A stretch of DNA of 20,263 bases from a virus. Of the stretch, positions 5,500-20,263 are shown in pieces. Below the pieces are notes generated by a model. That model was not told the DNA's origin, did not search any database, and saw only the letters and a list, made by a program, of their open reading frames with translations. The stretch spans positions 1 to 20,263 of the IMG/VR virus record IMGVR_UViG_3300010885_017632; one strand, given 5' to 3'. The translations under genes were made by a program, and so were the position numbers. Each line of letters starts with the position of its first letter. Within the stretch, counting starts at the first letter, position 1.

Positions 5500-6488
5500 T
5501 GGACAAGTGGGTAGCTATAACTGGTTGTAATGGATACATTGGTGGTCAAACTGTTTTAAAGTTTAAAGACTTGGGATATAAGGTCATTGGCGTTGATAGG
5601 AATAACACAAGTCCTTGGATTAGAAATATTGTAGATTCATTTATTACAGGGGATTTCACTAACCCCATGTTTATAAATGTAATGATAGATCGAAATCCAG
5701 ATTCTCTTATACACATTGCTGGGACCAGCCTTGTTGGGCCAAGTATGACCGATCCTGGTCCTTACTATACCAATAACGTAGGAAATACTGCAAAGTTATT
5801 GGGTTTATTGGCAGACAGGGGATGGAAGAAGACAGTTATATTTTCTGGTAGTGCCGCAATATACGGAGACCAGGGTGATGCTCTTGTAACTGAAGAGACT
5901 CCAAAATTACCTATTAGTCCATATGGACAAAGTAAGCTAATGGCAGAGCAAGTGCTTAGAGATTGTGCCGCAGGATACGGATTTAAAACCATATCGTTGA
6001 GATACTTTAATGCATGCGGTGCAGACTCGCGAGTAAGACATGGACAATTAAAACAGGCCACGCATCTTATTGCCAGGATTATGGAAAGTATTGTTAATCG
6101 TAGTGTGTTTACACTTAACGGTAATGCTTATGATACGCCAGATGGTACCTGCGTGAGAGATTACCTGCACGTTGAAGACATTGCTCATGCTCACTTTTTG
6201 GCAACCAAGTATGCTGAAACTATGGAGATGTCTAGCAATGAATTTAATCTCAGTTCAGGTAAAGGTGTAAGTATTCAAGACATTATTAAAAGCGTCGAAT
6301 ATATAACAGGTCGAACTGTTCTTGTTCATACAGGACCACCTAGGCCTGGCGATCCGGCAACACTGGTTGCAAGTGCTCGTAAGTTTTATAGAGATGCCGG
6401 ATGGCAACCAGTTAATAGCACTATTGATAATATTGTAAGAACATCATGGGCCTGGTATAACTCAGTCGAATATGGAAATAGAGCATGA
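5499..6488 (+). CDS. NAD-dependent sugar epimerase/dehydratase (GalE-like extended SDR)
   Basis: 329 residues, nearly the length of UDP-glucose 4-epimerase (about 338). The Rossmann motif GCNGYIGG is at residues 9-16. SGSAAIYG is the catalytic serine region, and Tyr142/Lys146 lie in SPYGQSKLMAEQ (the YxxxK pair). LRYFNACGAD and the later GTCVRDYLHVEDIAHAH and PRPGDPA match GalE-type signature segments closely. It probably interconverts UDP-glucose and UDP-galactose or a related UDP-sugar in the cytoplasm. It overlaps the glycosyltransferase by one base (TAATG) and the cytidylyltransferase by four (ATGA), so the three are very likely made together. GalE and related epimerases are hard to tell apart by eye, so no symbol is given. 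Confidence 0.85.
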   Translation: MDKWVAITGCNGYIGGQTVLKFKDLGYKVIGVDRNNTSPWIRNIVDSFITGDFTNPMFINVMIDRNPDSLIHIAGTSLVGPSMTDPGPYYTNNVGNTAKLLGLLADRGWKKTVIFSGSAAIYGDQGDALVTEETPKLPISPYGQSKLMAEQVLRDCAAGYGFKTISLRYFNACGADSRVRHGQLKQATHLIARIMESIVNRSVFTLNGNAYDTPDGTCVRDYLHVEDIAHAHFLATKYAETMEMSSNEFNLSSGKGVSIQDIIKSVEYITGRTVLVHTGPPRPGDPATLVASARKFYRDAGWQPVNSTIDNIVRTSWAWYNSVEYGNRA

Positions 6489-12370: not shown

Positions 12371-13139
12371 TTTACATTTAGAATTTGAAGACATTGACAT
12401 TAAGAATGACCAGGCATGCGATGTGCTAATTCTATCTGGGGACATACTTGTTGCCTCTAAATTAGATAAGAATTCTGCATATGGGGAACGCTTTAGAAAC
12501 TTCCTAAGTCGTGTTAGTTTGCAGTTTCCGCATGTTGTTTATGTTGCTGGTAATCATGAATTCTATAGCAATGGACAATGGGTTCAAAGTATTGAAGATC
12601 TAAGGACTGCATGTTCTCAATATCCCAATGTGTATTTTCTAGAAAGAGATACCAAAACGATTGATGATGTTGTATTTGTTGGCGGAACTTTGTGGACTAA
12701 TATGAACAAAGGTGATCCTTTAACTTTACAGCATGTTAAGAATAGTATGAATGATTATCGTCAGATCCGCAATGATGTCAATGGCTATACTACACTTAAA
12801 CCAAACGATACAGTTGTTAGACACACACAAACACTAGAGTATATTAAATTTGTACTTGATGAAAATGCAACTAAAAGGTGTGTTGTGGTTGGGCATCATA
12901 GCCCAAGCTTTGCAAGTGCTCATGACATGTATAAAGCCGATTTTTTAATGAATGGTGCATACCATAGTGAATTAAGCGAATTTATTTTAGATCATCCACA
13001 AATCAAATTATGGACACATGGACATACTCATCATCCATTTGATTACTGCATTGGTTCTACTCGTGTTGTATGTAATCCACGTGGTTATGAGGGTTATGAG
13101 GACACTGGTTGGAACGAAGATATTGTGCTAGAAGTTTAA
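12345..13139 (+). CDS. Calcineurin-like metallophosphoesterase
   Basis: 264 residues with all the metal-binding blocks of the family in order: Asp9-x-His11 in VVSDLHLE, LSGDILV, VAGNHEFYS, a later GHHSPSF, and HGHTHH near the end. This set binds two metal ions and cleaves phosphomonoesters or diesters; substrates range from nucleotides to nucleic-acid ends. Two ATGs start the gene (12345 and 12348), and AGAAGG just upstream is a weak ribosome site. It overlaps the previous gene by 26 bases. Phage members of this family often have unknown substrates, and nothing here identifies one. Confidence 0.85.
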   Translation: MMKIKVVSDLHLEFEDIDIKNDQACDVLILSGDILVASKLDKNSAYGERFRNFLSRVSLQFPHVVYVAGNHEFYSNGQWVQSIEDLRTACSQYPNVYFLERDTKTIDDVVFVGGTLWTNMNKGDPLTLQHVKNSMNDYRQIRNDVNGYTTLKPNDTVVRHTQTLEYIKFVLDENATKRCVVVGHHSPSFASAHDMYKADFLMNGAYHSELSEFILDHPQIKLWTHGHTHHPFDYCIGSTRVVCNPRGYEGYEDTGWNEDIVLEV

Positions 13140-15006: not shown

Positions 15007-15322
15007 ATGGTTTAAAAAGAAATTCAAAAAAAAGCCGACAGCAGAATCAATGAAGGACAATCCAGAACCTTGGGTCAATGTTGTTAAAGCTCATGTGGAT
15101 CATAATAATCCCAAGGCTGGTTATTTTGAATTAGAATGGAATCCTGCATTTGTTTTATTCTTGCGTAATAATGGATATCAAGGTGTAACTGCCGAAGAAA
15201 TTGTGGATCAGTGGTTCACTGACATGTGTCGCAATGTCAGCATGGATGGACAAGCCGCTGGCGATTTCATTGCTGATGCTGGACGTATTGCAACAAATGA
15301 AAAGACTCGGATGCAACAATGA
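14999..15322 (+). CDS. Phage protein of unknown function with basic N-terminus
   Basis: 107 residues. It opens with a very basic amphipathic segment (MFEWFKKKFKKKP) that could be a membrane- or nucleic-acid-contacting tail. The body has EPWVNVVKAHVDHNNPKAGYFELEWNPAFVLFLRNN followed by a second helix near GVTAEEIVDQWFTDMCRNV. The layout recalls conserved hypotheticals of aquatic T4-like phages. Start and stop overlap neighbours (ATGA at the end), so it is in the operon with QueE and MOSC. Confidence 0.6.
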   Translation: MFEWFKKKFKKKPTAESMKDNPEPWVNVVKAHVDHNNPKAGYFELEWNPAFVLFLRNNGYQGVTAEEIVDQWFTDMCRNVSMDGQAAGDFIADAGRIATNEKTRMQQ

Positions 15323-16014
15323 CAGGAAGTGTGATTGCTGTAGGGTATTCTAAGGATGTTGTACCCAATGGAGTCAAACGAGCCGAAGAACAATCTGTAC
15401 AAAAATCATTGTTAAACTTTTTGCGTGGCAATACTGACAACAAACAAGATGCAATTGAAGCAGTTAAAATAATTAAAAAATTCAACATAAACAAGCCGCC
15501 ACAAGATCAAATAGAGTTGATATCTGGTGGCGTTGTAAATGACAAACATTTTTATCCGCATCGTAGATATGAAAACAAAGGACTAGTATACACTAGAGCC
15601 ACCATTGGAGAGGTCAATTTATTTGCATCTGAAGAATTAGAAAAATTAAATGCCGTTTTCAATACAAATGTAAAGGCAGGTGCATTGGGTGAAAATATAC
15701 TAACCAGCAACATTGACATTGATAATCTAACACACGGTACAATATTGAAAATTGGCAGTACTGCACAGATAAAAATATTGGCTCGCCGTTCGTTCTGCTA
15801 TAAGTTTGTCAATGTGTTCTTTCCTGAAAGTGAAATATGGAGTGTGCCTGACATCAAAAAAATAGACAAAAACCGGATAGGAGTACTGGGCCAAGTGATC
15901 CAGGCAGGCATTGTTAGACCCAATGACCAAATTGAAATTGTTGAGGTTGCCAGTCATGTATCGCTTAAATCTATAGAACCACCTAACATTTATATTGACA
16001 CACCACTGGCTTGA
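15319..16014 (+). CDS. MOSC-domain protein
   Basis: 231 residues. GALGENILTSNIDIDNLTHGTILKIGSTAQIKI is the characteristic MOSC domain block (GEN, then a short turn, then G-x-x-L-x-IG). The usually conserved Cys follows in ARRSFCYKF (Cys160), where the typical motif is R-x-P-C. An upstream GGVVNDKHF matches the G-x-x-x-D-x-H of the family. MOSC domains bind sulfur or other groups delivered to metal cofactors (molybdenum cofactor sulfurase C-terminus, YiiM, YuaD). This one has no molybdenum-binding partner beside it, so the substrate is open. The first 80 residues look like an N-terminal extension. Its ATG overlaps the upstream stop. Confidence 0.8.
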   Translation: MTGSVIAVGYSKDVVPNGVKRAEEQSVQKSLLNFLRGNTDNKQDAIEAVKIIKKFNINKPPQDQIELISGGVVNDKHFYPHRRYENKGLVYTRATIGEVNLFASEELEKLNAVFNTNVKAGALGENILTSNIDIDNLTHGTILKIGSTAQIKILARRSFCYKFVNVFFPESEIWSVPDIKKIDKNRIGVLGQVIQAGIVRPNDQIEIVEVASHVSLKSIEPPNIYIDTPLA

Positions 16015-16023
16015 TGCTATAAT
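15995..16023 (+). promoter_or_regulatory. Perfect sigma70 promoter producing a leaderless exonuclease mRNA
   Basis: TTGACA (15995-16000), 17 bases, then TATAAT (16018-16023), with TGC before the -10. The predicted start is base 16030, which is the A of the exonuclease ATG. No Shine-Dalgarno sequence lies before that ATG. The -35 lies inside the end of the MOSC gene. Confidence 0.8.
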
Positions 16024-16029
16024 AATACT

Positions 16030-17013
16030 ATGAGTTACTTAATCGTTGATGCCGCAAATTTATTCTTTCGTGCCCGCCACGTGATCCGTACTGGTGATCC
16101 AGAAGAACGTGTAGCAATGAGCTATCACATCATCTTGGCCGCTGTACTAAAACAATGGAAGGAACGCCAAGGCAAACATGTTGTATTCTGTTTCGAAGGC
16201 AGGTCGTGGCGTAAGGAGGTGTACAAACCTTACAAGGCTCAGCGAGCAGATGCTAGGGCCAAGCATACTCCCAAAGAAGCTGAGGAAGAAAAACTGTTCT
16301 GGGAAAGCTTTGACAAGTTCTACGAATACATCAGCACCAAGACCAATGTAACAGTATTGCGAAATCCTGTATGTGAAGCAGATGATTTTATTGCACGTTG
16401 GATACAATTACACCCAAGTGATAACCACATTATTGTTTCAAGCGATGGCGATTTTGAACAATTGATTGCTCCCAATGTCCAACTCTACAATGGTATTGCC
16501 GGAGTCCTTACTACACATGAGGGGTATTATGATGACAAAGGTAAGCCTGTTATTGATAAGAAAACTAAACAAGTCAAAGCCGCGCCGGATCCAAGCTGGT
16601 TATTATTTGAGAAGTGTATGCGTGGCGACACATCCGACAACATCTTTAGTGCTTATCCGGGAGTTCGCGAGAAAGGCACAAAGAATAAAGTTGGTCTCCG
16701 TGATGCCTTTGCCGACAGAGACAATAAAGGATTCATGTGGAACAATCTCATGCTTCAACGTTGGTCCGACCACGAAGGTAATGAACACTTGGTAAGAGAC
16801 GATTATGAGCGTAATAAAAGCATTATTGATTTGACTGCACAGCCAGACAACATCAAAGCAATATTAGATCAGAGTATTGCCGACGCAGTACAAAAACCTC
16901 GTAATCCCAGTGTAGGCCCTCATTTTATGAAGTTTTGTGGTAAGTATCAGTTACAAAAGGCAAGCGATAATGCTCAACAACATACTGACTGGCTGGCGGC
17001 AAGCTATAGTTAA
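16030..17013 (+). CDS. 5'-3' exonuclease / RNase H (T4 RNase H-like, FEN family)
   Basis: 327 residues, close to T4 RNase H (305). The acidic metal-binding residues are in the expected order: Asp7 in LIVDAANLFFR, later FCFEGRSWRKEVYKPYKAQR, EADDFIARW, SSDGDFEQLI, and GDTSDNI near the helix-hairpin-helix. In T4 this enzyme removes RNA primers from lagging-strand fragments, assisted by the clamp. The ATG at 16030 coincides with the predicted transcription start of a perfect sigma70 promoter and has no ribosome site, so the mRNA is probably leaderless. The last 44 bases overlap the next gene. Confidence 0.9.
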   Translation: MSYLIVDAANLFFRARHVIRTGDPEERVAMSYHIILAAVLKQWKERQGKHVVFCFEGRSWRKEVYKPYKAQRADARAKHTPKEAEEEKLFWESFDKFYEYISTKTNVTVLRNPVCEADDFIARWIQLHPSDNHIIVSSDGDFEQLIAPNVQLYNGIAGVLTTHEGYYDDKGKPVIDKKTKQVKAAPDPSWLLFEKCMRGDTSDNIFSAYPGVREKGTKNKVGLRDAFADRDNKGFMWNNLMLQRWSDHEGNEHLVRDDYERNKSIIDLTAQPDNIKAILDQSIADAVQKPRNPSVGPHFMKFCGKYQLQKASDNAQQHTDWLAASYS

Positions 17014-17329
17014 ATTCGTATTCATCTTCACATTACTGTGTCTTGTAGTGATGTGTATTCCTGTGCTTGCTGGCGCACCATTAGTTGGAACTGAATCAAA
17101 ATGGTTTTGTGGTGCTAGCGAAGATTTATATTCAGAACTAATGCGATATAAAGAAGAACCAATCATGTCTGGTTCAGTTGTGGATGATTTATTTTATATG
17201 TCATTTTGGGCAAATGCTGTCGCTGGAACATGGACCATAATTGTTTCTTCAAGCAAAGAAAAGGGAACCAGTTGTATAGTTTTAGAAGGTTCTAAATTTC
17301 ATTTAATGAAGCCAACGAACTTTGTTTAA
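16970..17329 (+). CDS. Small exported or lipid-anchored phage protein
   Basis: 119 residues from ATG 16970 (the frame is open from a GTG at 16937). The N-terminus has a basic n-region (TGWRQAIVK) and a hydrophobic run of about 17 residues (FVFIFTLLCLVVMCIPV), ending LAGAPLVG, a likely signal peptidase site. The mature part has two cysteines (KWFCGASED and TSCIVLEGS) that could form a disulfide, and an AVAGTWTIIVSSS strand. Phage and proteobacterial proteins with this layout are thought to act in the periplasm, but the function is not known. The gene starts inside the exonuclease end. Confidence 0.65.
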   Translation: MLNNILTGWRQAIVKFVFIFTLLCLVVMCIPVLAGAPLVGTESKWFCGASEDLYSELMRYKEEPIMSGSVVDDLFYMSFWANAVAGTWTIIVSSSKEKGTSCIVLEGSKFHLMKPTNFV

Positions 17330-17345
17330 CTAGTTTATTAAATAC

Positions 17346-17366
17346 GCACTTATGATAAATAAGTGC
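17346..17366 (+). other. Hairpin overlapping a late promoter and ending at a start codon
   Basis: GCACTTAT (17346-17353) and ATAAGTGC (17359-17366) form an eight-base-pair stem with the 5-base loop GATAA. The base after the stem is the A of the ATG at 17367. The late box GATAAATA (17354-17361) lies in the loop and right arm. Confidence 0.6.
17354..17361 (+). promoter_or_regulatory. T4-type late promoter box directly before a start codon
   Basis: GATAAATA matches the T4 late consensus TATAAATA at seven of eight positions. Five bases separate its end from ATG 17367, so a start at the standard T4 distance would fall on the A of the ATG. No ribosome site is present. Confidence 0.6.
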
Positions 17367-17678
17367 ATGAGTAGACCTAAACCATCCATATTATTAACCA
17401 ATACAGATCCTAGAACATACAAGAGCGAAGAAGTGCTTGCGGCTGATGCAATCTATGCTGTATTTTTTAAAAATAAACCTATAAATCTACGTACATTGAA
17501 TAGTCTTGTAAGTTACCCAGGACCAAAATATAAAAAGGTAAGCTTCTCCAATCCAGGACATGCCTTCAATCTAGCAGATAGATTGAACAAAATGTTTAAA
17601 AGTGATGAATTTAGCGTGGTTGAACTAAAGCAAGGTCGACGCATAAATGAGCAAGGAACTAGCTATAAAGATATCTGA
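17367..17678 (+). CDS. Conserved-looking phage protein, probably leaderless
   Basis: 103 residues from ATG 17367. An upstream in-frame ATG at 17352 is inside the hairpin and has no ribosome site. The protein opens MSRPKPSILLTNTDPRTYKSEEVLAADAIYAVFF, then PINLRTLNSLVSYPGPKYKKVSFSNPGHAFNLADRLN, a pattern I recall in many T4-related aquatic phage genomes as a hypothetical protein. Basic residues are spread along the chain. The role is unknown. It overlaps the next gene by 32 bases and probably shares its late promoter with it. Confidence 0.7.
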   Translation: MSRPKPSILLTNTDPRTYKSEEVLAADAIYAVFFKNKPINLRTLNSLVSYPGPKYKKVSFSNPGHAFNLADRLNKMFKSDEFSVVELKQGRRINEQGTSYKDI

Positions 17679-18030
17679 GTACCTAGCTCAGTATCCTTTA
17701 CCCCATATTTGGGAAAATACAAAGATAACACCTTATTCGGTGTTTAAGAACTATCAGCCTGGCCGACAAAAAGGTTTACGTTTAACAGCCTTTGGCTGGG
17801 CTTTAATGCAACCACATTTCCGTTATTGGAGTTATCAACTGCCTGCAGGTTGGGCACCTAAACCAGGCCACCTAATAGGATTAGAACAACATTTAGATTG
17901 GCCGTATTATCACGGTGCCGGTTACTTCCGCATATTTGGCGAAAACGATGCCATGGAGATTCGTTTGGTAAACGATGATGTTATCTTGTGGTTGGATGGT
18001 TTAAGTAGGAAAGCTCAACGTAAAGGCTAG
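17647..18030 (+). CDS. Conserved-looking phage protein, unknown function
   Basis: 127 residues, starting 32 bases before the end of the upstream gene. It is rich in aromatics (ITPYSVFKNY, then HFRYWSYQLPAGWAPKPGH and LDWPYYHGAGYFRIFGE), with a strand-like end (AMEIRLVNDDVILWLDGL). The pattern looks like a compact beta-rich protein, but I cannot assign a family. Its stop codon TAG shares CTAG with the stop of the convergent SOD-like gene at 18027. Confidence 0.65.
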   Translation: MSKELAIKISEYLAQYPLPHIWENTKITPYSVFKNYQPGRQKGLRLTAFGWALMQPHFRYWSYQLPAGWAPKPGHLIGLEQHLDWPYYHGAGYFRIFGENDAMEIRLVNDDVILWLDGLSRKAQRKG

Positions 18031-18587
18031 ATTAAACGTTGATTAACTACATTCCAGTCTACAATACGCCAGAAGTTTTCTAGATACTTCTTTTTGTCTG
18101 ATTGATAATCTAGGGCCCATGCATGTTCCCACCAATCAATAAGCAGTACAATTCTATCAGTATTGCCAGTAATGCTATGGTTGGCAATGGTTTGAATATT
18201 TCCGCTACGGTCTAAGAATACCCAACCACTGCCTTGTATGCCCATGGCTCGTTCAGTGATCTGATCTTTAAACGCATCAAATGTTTTAAAGTTACGCTCA
18301 ATAAAATCTGCCGCATTACCAACAGGTTTATTTCCTGACCGTGGTGCTTGCAGTTGCGGAAAGAAAATATTGTGTAAATCTGCACCATTCTTATTAAACT
18401 TAGGATCGCCTTCACCTGAATTGTAACGATCCACATAGGCCTTGGCCAGCTTGCCATAATGATAATCAAGTGTTGCTTCACTCATTACTGGATCTAAATC
18501 TGTTCTTTTATAAGGTAGGCGATTGAGGCTTAAGGTCAACTTGATGCCTTCTACAATCATTACATATTTTCTAATTTCGTTTTGCAT
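18027..18587 (-). CDS. Iron/manganese superoxide dismutase-like protein with altered metal site
   Basis: 186 residues, close to Fe/Mn SODs (about 190-200). The fold is clear: LPYKRTDLDPVMSEATLDYHYGKLAKAYVDRYN, LHNIFFPQL, GSGWVFLDRSGNIQTIANH, and LLIDWWEHAWALDYQSDKKKYLENFWRIVDW. Three metal ligands are in place (His72, Asp151, His155), but the first, normally His in an L-x-P-H-I-S context, is Val34 (LDPVMS). The glutamine usually before the second histidine (QVWNH) is also absent (GADLH). So it may bind metal differently or act without SOD activity, for example as a structural protein. It has no ribosome site and begins six bases after a late box, so the mRNA is probably leaderless. Confidence 0.85.
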   Translation of the reverse strand: MQNEIRKYVMIVEGIKLTLSLNRLPYKRTDLDPVMSEATLDYHYGKLAKAYVDRYNSGEGDPKFNKNGADLHNIFFPQLQAPRSGNKPVGNAADFIERNFKTFDAFKDQITERAMGIQGSGWVFLDRSGNIQTIANHSITGNTDRIVLLIDWWEHAWALDYQSDKKKYLENFWRIVDWNVVNQRLI

Positions 18588-18592
18588 AGGTT

Positions 18593-18600
18593 TATTTATA
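18593..18600 (-). promoter_or_regulatory. T4-type late promoter for the SOD-like gene
   Basis: A perfect TATAAATA on the minus strand ends at 18593. Five bases (18592-18588) separate it from the ATG at 18587, so the predicted start is the ATG itself. No ribosome site is present. Confidence 0.7.
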
Positions 18601-18604
18601 AATA
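18597..18604 (+). promoter_or_regulatory. T4-type late promoter for the gene at 18610
   Basis: A perfect TATAAATA ends at 18604. Five bases (18605-18609) separate it from ATG 18610, the same distance as on the minus strand. The two boxes overlap by four bases, so polymerase probably occupies only one at a time. Confidence 0.7.
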
Positions 18605-18609
18605 ATCAC

Positions 18610-19044
18610 ATGCAACATTGGCAACCATATGTGCGAGCCGGGTGGGAACTAGTCGTCGAAGCCCAAGGTATTAGTCAGACTTATTTAGAGCCGGACGTGG
18701 AAGCTTTTTTGGTACATACAGTTGCACGTACATTTCAACGCAACGATATTTGGGAACAGCCTGTTGCAATACGCATGATGACAGCACAGTCTCTCCCAAA
18801 TGCTAAAAAACAACCAGCCATGCGTACAATTGGTGAAGAATGTTTGTTTATTGATGCATGGGAAATAAAGCAAACAAGATGGCCTAGCCCAACATACTTT
18901 TCAAGTATGGGTGAAATTGCATTTGGGATGGCCAGTACTGCCAGCAATCCAGCAGATGAACTATTAGAGTTGGTAAGCAACAATTTCAAACGCATGAGTC
19001 AAGTGTTAAAACAGGCTAAAAACCTATATTTGCTTAAAAATTAA
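18610..19044 (+). CDS. Phage protein of unknown function, probably leaderless
   Basis: 144 residues from ATG 18610; the frame is open from 18523, but the earlier part overlaps the SOD gene on the other strand and precedes the late promoter. The protein has MQHWQPYVRAGWELVVEA, then VHTVARTFQRNDIWEQPVAIRM, a strand-rich middle with CLFIDAWEIK, and a helical end (ADELLELVSNNFKRMSQVLKQAKNLY). The composition suggests a soluble alpha/beta protein. No family is recognised. A likely terminator lies right after its stop (19047-19077). Confidence 0.65.
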   Translation: MQHWQPYVRAGWELVVEAQGISQTYLEPDVEAFLVHTVARTFQRNDIWEQPVAIRMMTAQSLPNAKKQPAMRTIGEECLFIDAWEIKQTRWPSPTYFSSMGEIAFGMASTASNPADELLELVSNNFKRMSQVLKQAKNLYLLKN

Positions 19045-19097: not shown

Positions 19098-19126
19098 TTG
19101 TGTTTAGAGCCAATCTAACATATAAT
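19098..19126 (+). promoter_or_regulatory. Sigma70 promoter with weak -35, close to a start codon
   Basis: TTGTGT (19098-19103), 17 bases, then TATAAT (19121-19126). The ATG is at 19136, nine bases after the -10, so the predicted start (19133) leaves a leader of only about 3 bases. There is no ribosome site. The -35 is poor, only TTG matching. Confidence 0.55.
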
Positions 19127-19135
19127 ACATTTACT

Positions 19136-19300
19136 ATGAAACAGAACACTATCACTATCAAATTGCCACGTTTAAAGCGTCGTTGCGTAGAGCTGTATTC
19201 TGCCAATTCTCCTTTCAAAGGTAAAGTTGAGCAAAATCGTGTTGCATATAAACGACATGCTAAGAACCAAAAACAGGTTGACAAGGATCTGGGTCTATAG
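19136..19300 (+). CDS. Small basic protein, nearly leaderless
   Basis: 54 residues from ATG 19136; the frame is open from a GTG at 19076, but that is upstream of the promoter. The protein is strongly basic (KLPRLKRRCVELY, then KGKVEQNRVAYKRHAKNQKQVDKD), with many lysines and arginines and little hydrophobic core. This composition suggests a nucleic-acid binding protein or an inhibitor of a host protein, as many phage early genes encode; that is inference. TTGACA of the next promoter lies in its last codons, and the predicted hairpin/terminator at 19309-19339 follows. Confidence 0.65.
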   Translation: MKQNTITIKLPRLKRRCVELYSANSPFKGKVEQNRVAYKRHAKNQKQVDKDLGL

Positions 19301-19802: not shown

Positions 19803-20263
19803 ATGGGAAATCAAGTCGAAAATCGTACAGTTAAAATTAGCGAGTGCAAACCAATTTTGCGCCGTGCAGTTGCAAAACGCCGTCCAGTGTTTATCTGGGG
19901 ACCCCCAGGAGTAGGCAAGTCAGATATGGTAAATCAAGTTGCCTCAGAGTTTCCCAACTCTACTGTGGTAGACTTACGTATGGCTCTCATGGATCCAACA
20001 GACATTAAAGGTGTGCCTTATTATTCAGCAGGCGACAATACTATGAAGTGGGCTACCCCTTCAGAATTGCCTAGTAAAGAATTTGCAAAAGAACATGACA
20101 TTGTGTTCTTGTTTTTAGATGAGCTCAACTCAGCTCCTCCAGCTGTCCAGGCTGCCGCTTATCAACTTATCCTTAACCGTAAGGTTGGACAGTATACCTT
20201 GCCAGACAATGTAGTAATGATTGCCGCTGGTAATCGTATGGGCGATAAAGGTGTTACATATCG
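19803..20263 (+). CDS. MoxR-type AAA+ ATPase, N-terminal part
   Basis: The first 153 residues of a protein cut by the window end. ATG 19803 follows AGGAG at 19791-19795. The Walker A motif is GPPGVGKSD (about residues 34-42), the Walker B motif is VFLFLDELNSAPP (about residues 101-113), and VVMIAAGNRMGDKG is the sensor 1 region. The order and wording match MoxR ATPases, which usually work as chaperone-like rings with a von Willebrand factor A (VWA) protein. In phages a VWA gene often follows it, but it would lie outside the window. ATP-driven remodelling of a protein complex is the general role; the target is unknown. Confidence 0.9.
   Translation, partial: MGNQVENRTVKISECKPILRRAVAKRRPVFIWGPPGVGKSDMVNQVASEFPNSTVVDLRMALMDPTDIKGVPYYSAGDNTMKWATPSELPSKEFAKEHDIVFLFLDELNSAPPAVQAAAYQLILNRKVGQYTLPDNVVMIAAGNRMGDKGVTY

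Follow-up and report, generated by a model that had tools for sequence, protein, structure and literature searches.

It is well established that leaderless mRNAs occur in bacteria and arise from a few phage genes. In T4-like phages, late transcription is a textbook case in which the messages carry leaders and Shine-Dalgarno (SD) sites. The T4 late promoters, served by gp55, gp33 and gp45, have a TATAAATA-type box without a −35 element, and this box spans −13 to −6, counted from the transcription start (PMC1524935). On leaderless messages, 70S ribosomes initiate at a 5'-proximal AUG, and extra initiator tRNA helps (PMC9031893). The known cases, such as lambda cI (PMC9031893), have a −10 box 5–6 nt before the AUG, no SD and an AUG that is predicted to lie at the 5' end or close to it; the AR9 paper also notes that transcripts of phages often have no leader (PMC5312081). 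The genes studied here have likewise these three properties, and they differ in forming a set dispersed over a T4-like genome that would use a phage late sigma factor as well as sigma-70. With T4 they share the late box lacking a −35, an encoded gp55 homologue and boxes before virion genes. In the open-access papers searched, no late gene of a T4-like phage was described as leaderless, in agreement with what the preliminary description of this DNA had supposed. Both parts, leaderless mRNAs and promoters of the sigma-70 or gp55 type, are known, and no account of their combination was found.

Promoters and start codons in the window

The window, i.e. the whole stretch of DNA that was analysed, is an IMG/VR virus record in its entirety (20,263 bases). 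Its genes mark it as a phage of the T4 superfamily; the closest relatives with a name are jumbo phages, among them Pseudomonas phage PA5oct, and its kin are large T4-like phages, mostly metagenome-derived. Judging from the sequence, the window very probably carries genes that are leaderless and have ordinary promoters of the sigma-70 and gp55 types, with the following features.

15995..16000, plus strand: −35 element TTGACA of the 16030 promoter (sequence; TTGAC kept there in relatives)
16018..16023, plus strand: −10 element TATAAT of 16030, with an extended TGC at 16015-16017 (sequence, relatives)
16030..17013, plus strand: predicted leaderless gene for a 5'-3' exonuclease of the T4 RNase H type, 327 aa (phrog_107, E 1.4e-33; PF02739)
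17354..17361, plus strand: late box GATAAATA for 17367, followed by AGTGC and ATG (sequence)
17367..17678, plus strand: predicted leaderless gene for a conserved 103-aa protein without assigned function (relatives' upstreams)
18600-18593, minus strand: late box TATAAATA, followed by AACCT and the ATG at 18587 (sequence)
18027..18587, minus strand: predicted leaderless gene for an Fe/Mn superoxide dismutase, 186 aa (PF02777 / PF00081)
18597..18604, plus strand: late box TATAAATA for 18610, followed by ATCAC and ATG (sequence)
18610..19044, plus strand: predicted leaderless gene for a 144-aa protein without assigned function (relatives' upstreams)
19121..19126, plus strand: −10 element TATAAT of 19136, followed by ACATTT, ACT and ATG, with a predicted +1 at 19133 (sequence)
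19136..19300, plus strand: near-leaderless gene (predicted 3-nt leader) for a small basic 54-aa protein (relatives' upstreams)
19803..20261, plus strand: contrast gene, an SD-led AAA ATPase gene (SD AGGAGCCACC, promoter about 28 nt upstream)

Upstream of the exonuclease gene we read TTGACA-N17-TATAAT-N6-ATG without an SD, exactly as first described, and the predicted +1 of this promoter is position 16030 itself. The hexamers, which in a sigma-70 promoter stand about 17 bp apart, are exact here and kept in relatives, and the full arrangement arose in none of 500 dinucleotide shuffles of the window. Over dozens of relatives the flanking upstream DNA of such genes has diverged, and what stays is the box, its distance to the start and the ATG. 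TTGAC, a correctly spaced −10 and N5–N7 to the ATG were present in 43 of 50 distinct exonuclease upstreams. Three further rows kept the promoter but had a 28–30 nt leader with an SD, and these led rows cluster with leaderless relatives in the tree, at a weakly supported fork; the remaining four were operonic or otherwise without this promoter. Conservation of the exonuclease N-terminus among relatives begins at residue 1 or 2. The PA5oct exonuclease is 52% identical to the window's protein. A MOSC-domain protein (PF03473) is encoded at 15319-16014, adjoining the exonuclease gene.

For the late-box genes, the arrangement TATAAATA-N5-ATG without an SD, claimed earlier for 18610 and for minus-strand 18587, is present at both. 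The same claim for 17367 holds for the five-base distance and the lack of an SD, and has to be corrected for the box, which is imperfect (GATAAATA, 7 of the 8 letters of TATAAATA). Relatives of 17367 have TGATAAATA or TGCTAAATA at N5; some orthologues show N8, which leaves the same predicted start 3 nt before the ATG (leader AUC or AUA), and a few have a leader with an SD. The features of a T4-type late promoter were found, namely a TATAAATA-like box, no −35 and a variable first T (consensus as in PMC1524935). At least two occurrences of TATAAATA-N5-ATG were obtained in 1 of 500 dinucleotide shuffles of the window. TAAATA-N5-ATG was kept in 31 of 32 distinct 18610 upstreams, down to about 53% protein identity; the upstream DNA was unconserved apart from TAAATA at −11 to −6, and codon-like conservation started at the ATG. 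Among the relatives examined, the superoxide dismutase gene occurred in only two other distinct forms, whose upstreams show N5 or N4, and it is perhaps a recent gain of the phage for this reason. None of the three late-box genes of the window is recognisable as a virion gene. The plus and minus late boxes overlap inside one palindrome, TTATTTATAAATAA, at 18593-18604. This single palindromic box is common to the divergent genes for superoxide dismutase and the 144-aa protein, and the gp2/gp4 pair of Pelagibacter phage HTVC008M is similar.

At 19136, TATAAT-N6-ACT-ATG without an SD bears out the earlier reading of about three leader bases; the leader would be ACU if +1 comes six bases past the −10. 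The −35 is weak in the window (TTGTGT), and most of 28 distinct 19136 upstreams carry TTGAC, a TATAAT-type −10, N6 and ACT-ATG. Starts that fall short of being fully leaderless often have a predicted leader of exactly three bases (ACU, AUC, AUA), counted from the same +1 (19133-19135; 17367 orthologues). Besides the AAA ATPase gene, gene 17647 serves as a contrast and is operonic.

The mechanism that we propose is as follows. Host sigma-70 RNA polymerase would start on the A of the start codon at 16030 and on a 3-nt leader at 19136, and the polymerase with a late sigma factor of the gp55 type would start on the start-codon A of 17367, 18610 and minus-strand 18587. With the T4 late box at −13 to −6, a spacing of N5 makes the A of the ATG the +1, and an RNA starting there would therefore begin with 5'-AUG. 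Such mRNAs would be translated by the leaderless route, with a 70S ribosome or an initiation complex on the 5'-terminal AUG, and not by SD pairing. Promoters further upstream could carry these genes on led transcripts as well.

Spacing in related genomes

We retrieved 80 relatives of the 16030 protein and scanned six of their contigs at full or nearly full length (G001 to G006; 285, 178, 86, 74, 60 and 60 kb, about 740 kb in all), together with the window. The exact pattern TATAAATA-N5-ATG proved too strict (2 matches in 285 kb), as the box varies in its first two letters, and TAAATA was used instead. Each TAAATA with a downstream ATG opening at least 40 open codons was counted, independently of gene calls. 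For sigma-70, TGnTAnnnT by itself was noisy in whole-genome counts, and the −35 was therefore needed too.

This genome-wide scan, which the preliminary description had proposed, gave a sharp excess at N5 for the late box and at N5–N6 for sigma-70; a lack of such excess had been named there as counter-evidence, and excesses were present in the related genomes. Over the six contigs, which are related and hence non-independent, and the window, TAAATA-Nk-ATG occurred 40 times at k=5, 13 times at k=4 and about 3 times at each other spacing. Some of the N4 cases may be boxes overlapping operon stop codons, or chance matches. The late N5 excess was significant in every contig scanned (G001, 12 observed against 1.09 expected, P 2e-9; G002, P 1e-9), and for sigma-70 the excess reached significance in three contigs (G001, G002, G004), was marginal in two (G003, G006) and did not appear in G005. 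Strong sigma-70 promoters were bimodal, with the ATG either at 5–6 nt (21 cases) or at 21–47 nt, where an SD-led hump covers about 21–38 nt, and 7–20 nt nearly empty. The −10 element of the leaderless candidates stood 5–7 nt before the start codon, as in leaderless genes.

Aligned on called starts, TAAATA formed a spike at −11 (27 of 435 genes with an upstream gap of at least 20 nt), with further spikes of TGnTAnnnT at −15/−14 and of TTGAC at −35; the SDs of other genes were centred near −11. An SD was present in 0 of 50 leaderless-type genes vs 183 of 385 others, an absence that follows in part from the box itself, which takes up the SD zone. The start codon was ATG in 60 of 62 candidates, the two GTG being one orthologous pair, which is a weak test since the gene caller favours ATG.

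It could be argued that the boxes are promoters whose start lies elsewhere, or that the start codon lies further downstream, so that the leaders are ordinary. The led 17367 and exonuclease orthologues with SDs speak for this, but conserved protein sequence and codon-like conservation begin at these ATGs, the T4 late box fixes +1 six bases past its last base (PMC1524935), and the distances are bimodal with a gap at 7–20 nt; we regard this explanation as unlikely. We give still less credit to the idea that TAAATA, being AT-rich and close to the start codon, is a translation signal (e.g. an S1-type or unstructured initiation region) in genes read from upstream promoters. The sigma-70 class has an exactly spaced −35 and an extended −10, divergent gene pairs have one palindromic or paired box, and both in these phages and in T4 the same TAAATA also stands 20–56 nt ahead of virion genes that have an SD.

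Gene classes, late sigma factor and initiator tRNAs

The gp55 family (phrog_234) is encoded by the three largest relatives (G001, G002 and G003) and by HTVC008M; it was not found in the fragments G004 to G006. The sigma-70 leaderless set comprises UvsW, gp47, dNMP kinase and the exonuclease, which are nucleic-acid or nucleotide enzymes, and the late leaderless set in the window's family includes baseplate gp25 and head proteins. This split between sigma-70 enzymes and late virion genes matches the expected timing. In G001 to G003, gp18, gp20 and gp23 are SD-led. In this family, enzymes and virion parts needed in few copies would have the leaderless layout, and abundant virion proteins, the major capsid protein for one, would have SD leaders; the leaderless layout probably serves as a compact, low-output initiation mode.

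A C1xA72 mismatch is typical of initiator tRNAs. The 285-kb contig G001 encodes 29 tRNAs and a tmRNA, and two of its CAT tRNAs have this mismatch (L084:11062-11136 and 12465-12540 (minus)); these initiator-type tRNAs may be tied to leaderless translation. The protein bS21, considered as an aid to leaderless initiation, was not found in G001 to G006 and is present in PA5oct and HTVC008M, and is therefore not a common factor.

The host could be identified neither through the superoxide dismutase, for which no bacterial relative with close patterns was found, nor through the phage tmRNA tag ANDSQFALAA, whose one matching contig, from a Lake Erken bin, is itself phage-like. The 3-kb contig L284, filed in a Lake Erken bacterial bin, is phage-like, with tRNAs, a tmRNA (tag ANDTQFALAA) and a ClpP-like ORF.

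Distribution among T4-like phages

The leaderless layout suggested for T4-like phages held for the window's family and for HTVC008M; T4, Syn9 and GAP32 lacked it and PA5oct was marginal. In T4, Syn9 and GAP32 the box is mostly 20–35 nt before the ATG, with a leader and an SD, whereas in the window's family it is at exactly 5 nt in many cases, and the same counts gave no N5 spike in these three phages. That the spacing is a mere by-product of tight packing in compact genomes, and not a selected initiation mode, fits the short intergenic gaps at many of these genes, but is highly improbable given the exact N5/N6, the depletion at 7–20 nt, the conservation over deep divergence and the lack of the pattern in these equally compact genomes. 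PA5oct, the nearest named phage, has gene content in common with the window and a gp55 homologue; it differs in that its exonuclease gene sits in an operon and has no promoter at the ATG, and its N5 excess is marginal (6 vs 2.8). One TATAAATA-N5-ATG of PA5oct is at 144985. TAAATA-N5-ATG showed no clear excess over a reversed control in PhiW-14, phiM12, XG4, S-SRM01, P-SSM2, CC_R7, KVP40, XaC1 and Aeh1, and in OLIVR5 the count was 4 vs 0.

HTVC008M (Kyanoviridae), a phage of the ocean bacterium SAR11, resembles the window's family in having a TATAAATA-type box at N5 before the ATG; it differs in having the late class only, with no sigma-70 class, and is distant from that family. Twelve open frames of this phage begin with the ATG of TAAATA-N5-ATG (P 3e-9), and these match the independent starts annotated in GenBank. 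The ATGs are at 6280, 7562, 11972, 18943, 19456, 31132, 49760, 75559, 75830 and 142360 and, on the minus strand, at 18916 and 16007. The genes concerned are gp2 and gp4 (divergent), gp48, gp25, gp3, a baseplate wedge gene, the tape measure gene and others, and every one of the 13 distinct upstreams from its relatives keeps the gp48 site. An SD leader precedes the genes for sheath, tube, portal and major capsid protein (gp19 among them). These gene identities suggest that leaderless initiation serves low-copy products. gp25 is predicted to be leaderless in both HTVC008M and the window's family, and gp2, gp4 and gp48 in HTVC008M.

More broadly, and only tentatively, T4-superfamily phages of uncultured aquatic bacteria may use two tracks of translation, abundant virion proteins being SD-led and low-copy virion parts and replication enzymes being leaderless from sigma-70 and gp55 promoters, with the leaderless track maybe aided by their own initiator-type tRNAs.

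A T4-type late box is placed as for AUG-start messages in at least two distant lineages, with gp25 in both. Orthologues that have the same promoter but differ in being led or leaderless offer a natural experiment on switching between the two modes, and the cultured pair of HTVC008M and SAR11 is a direct test system. If this is confirmed, leaderless genes should be provided for when start codons are annotated in such phages, and the mode of translation would add to the regulation of T4-like phages a layer on which selection can act.
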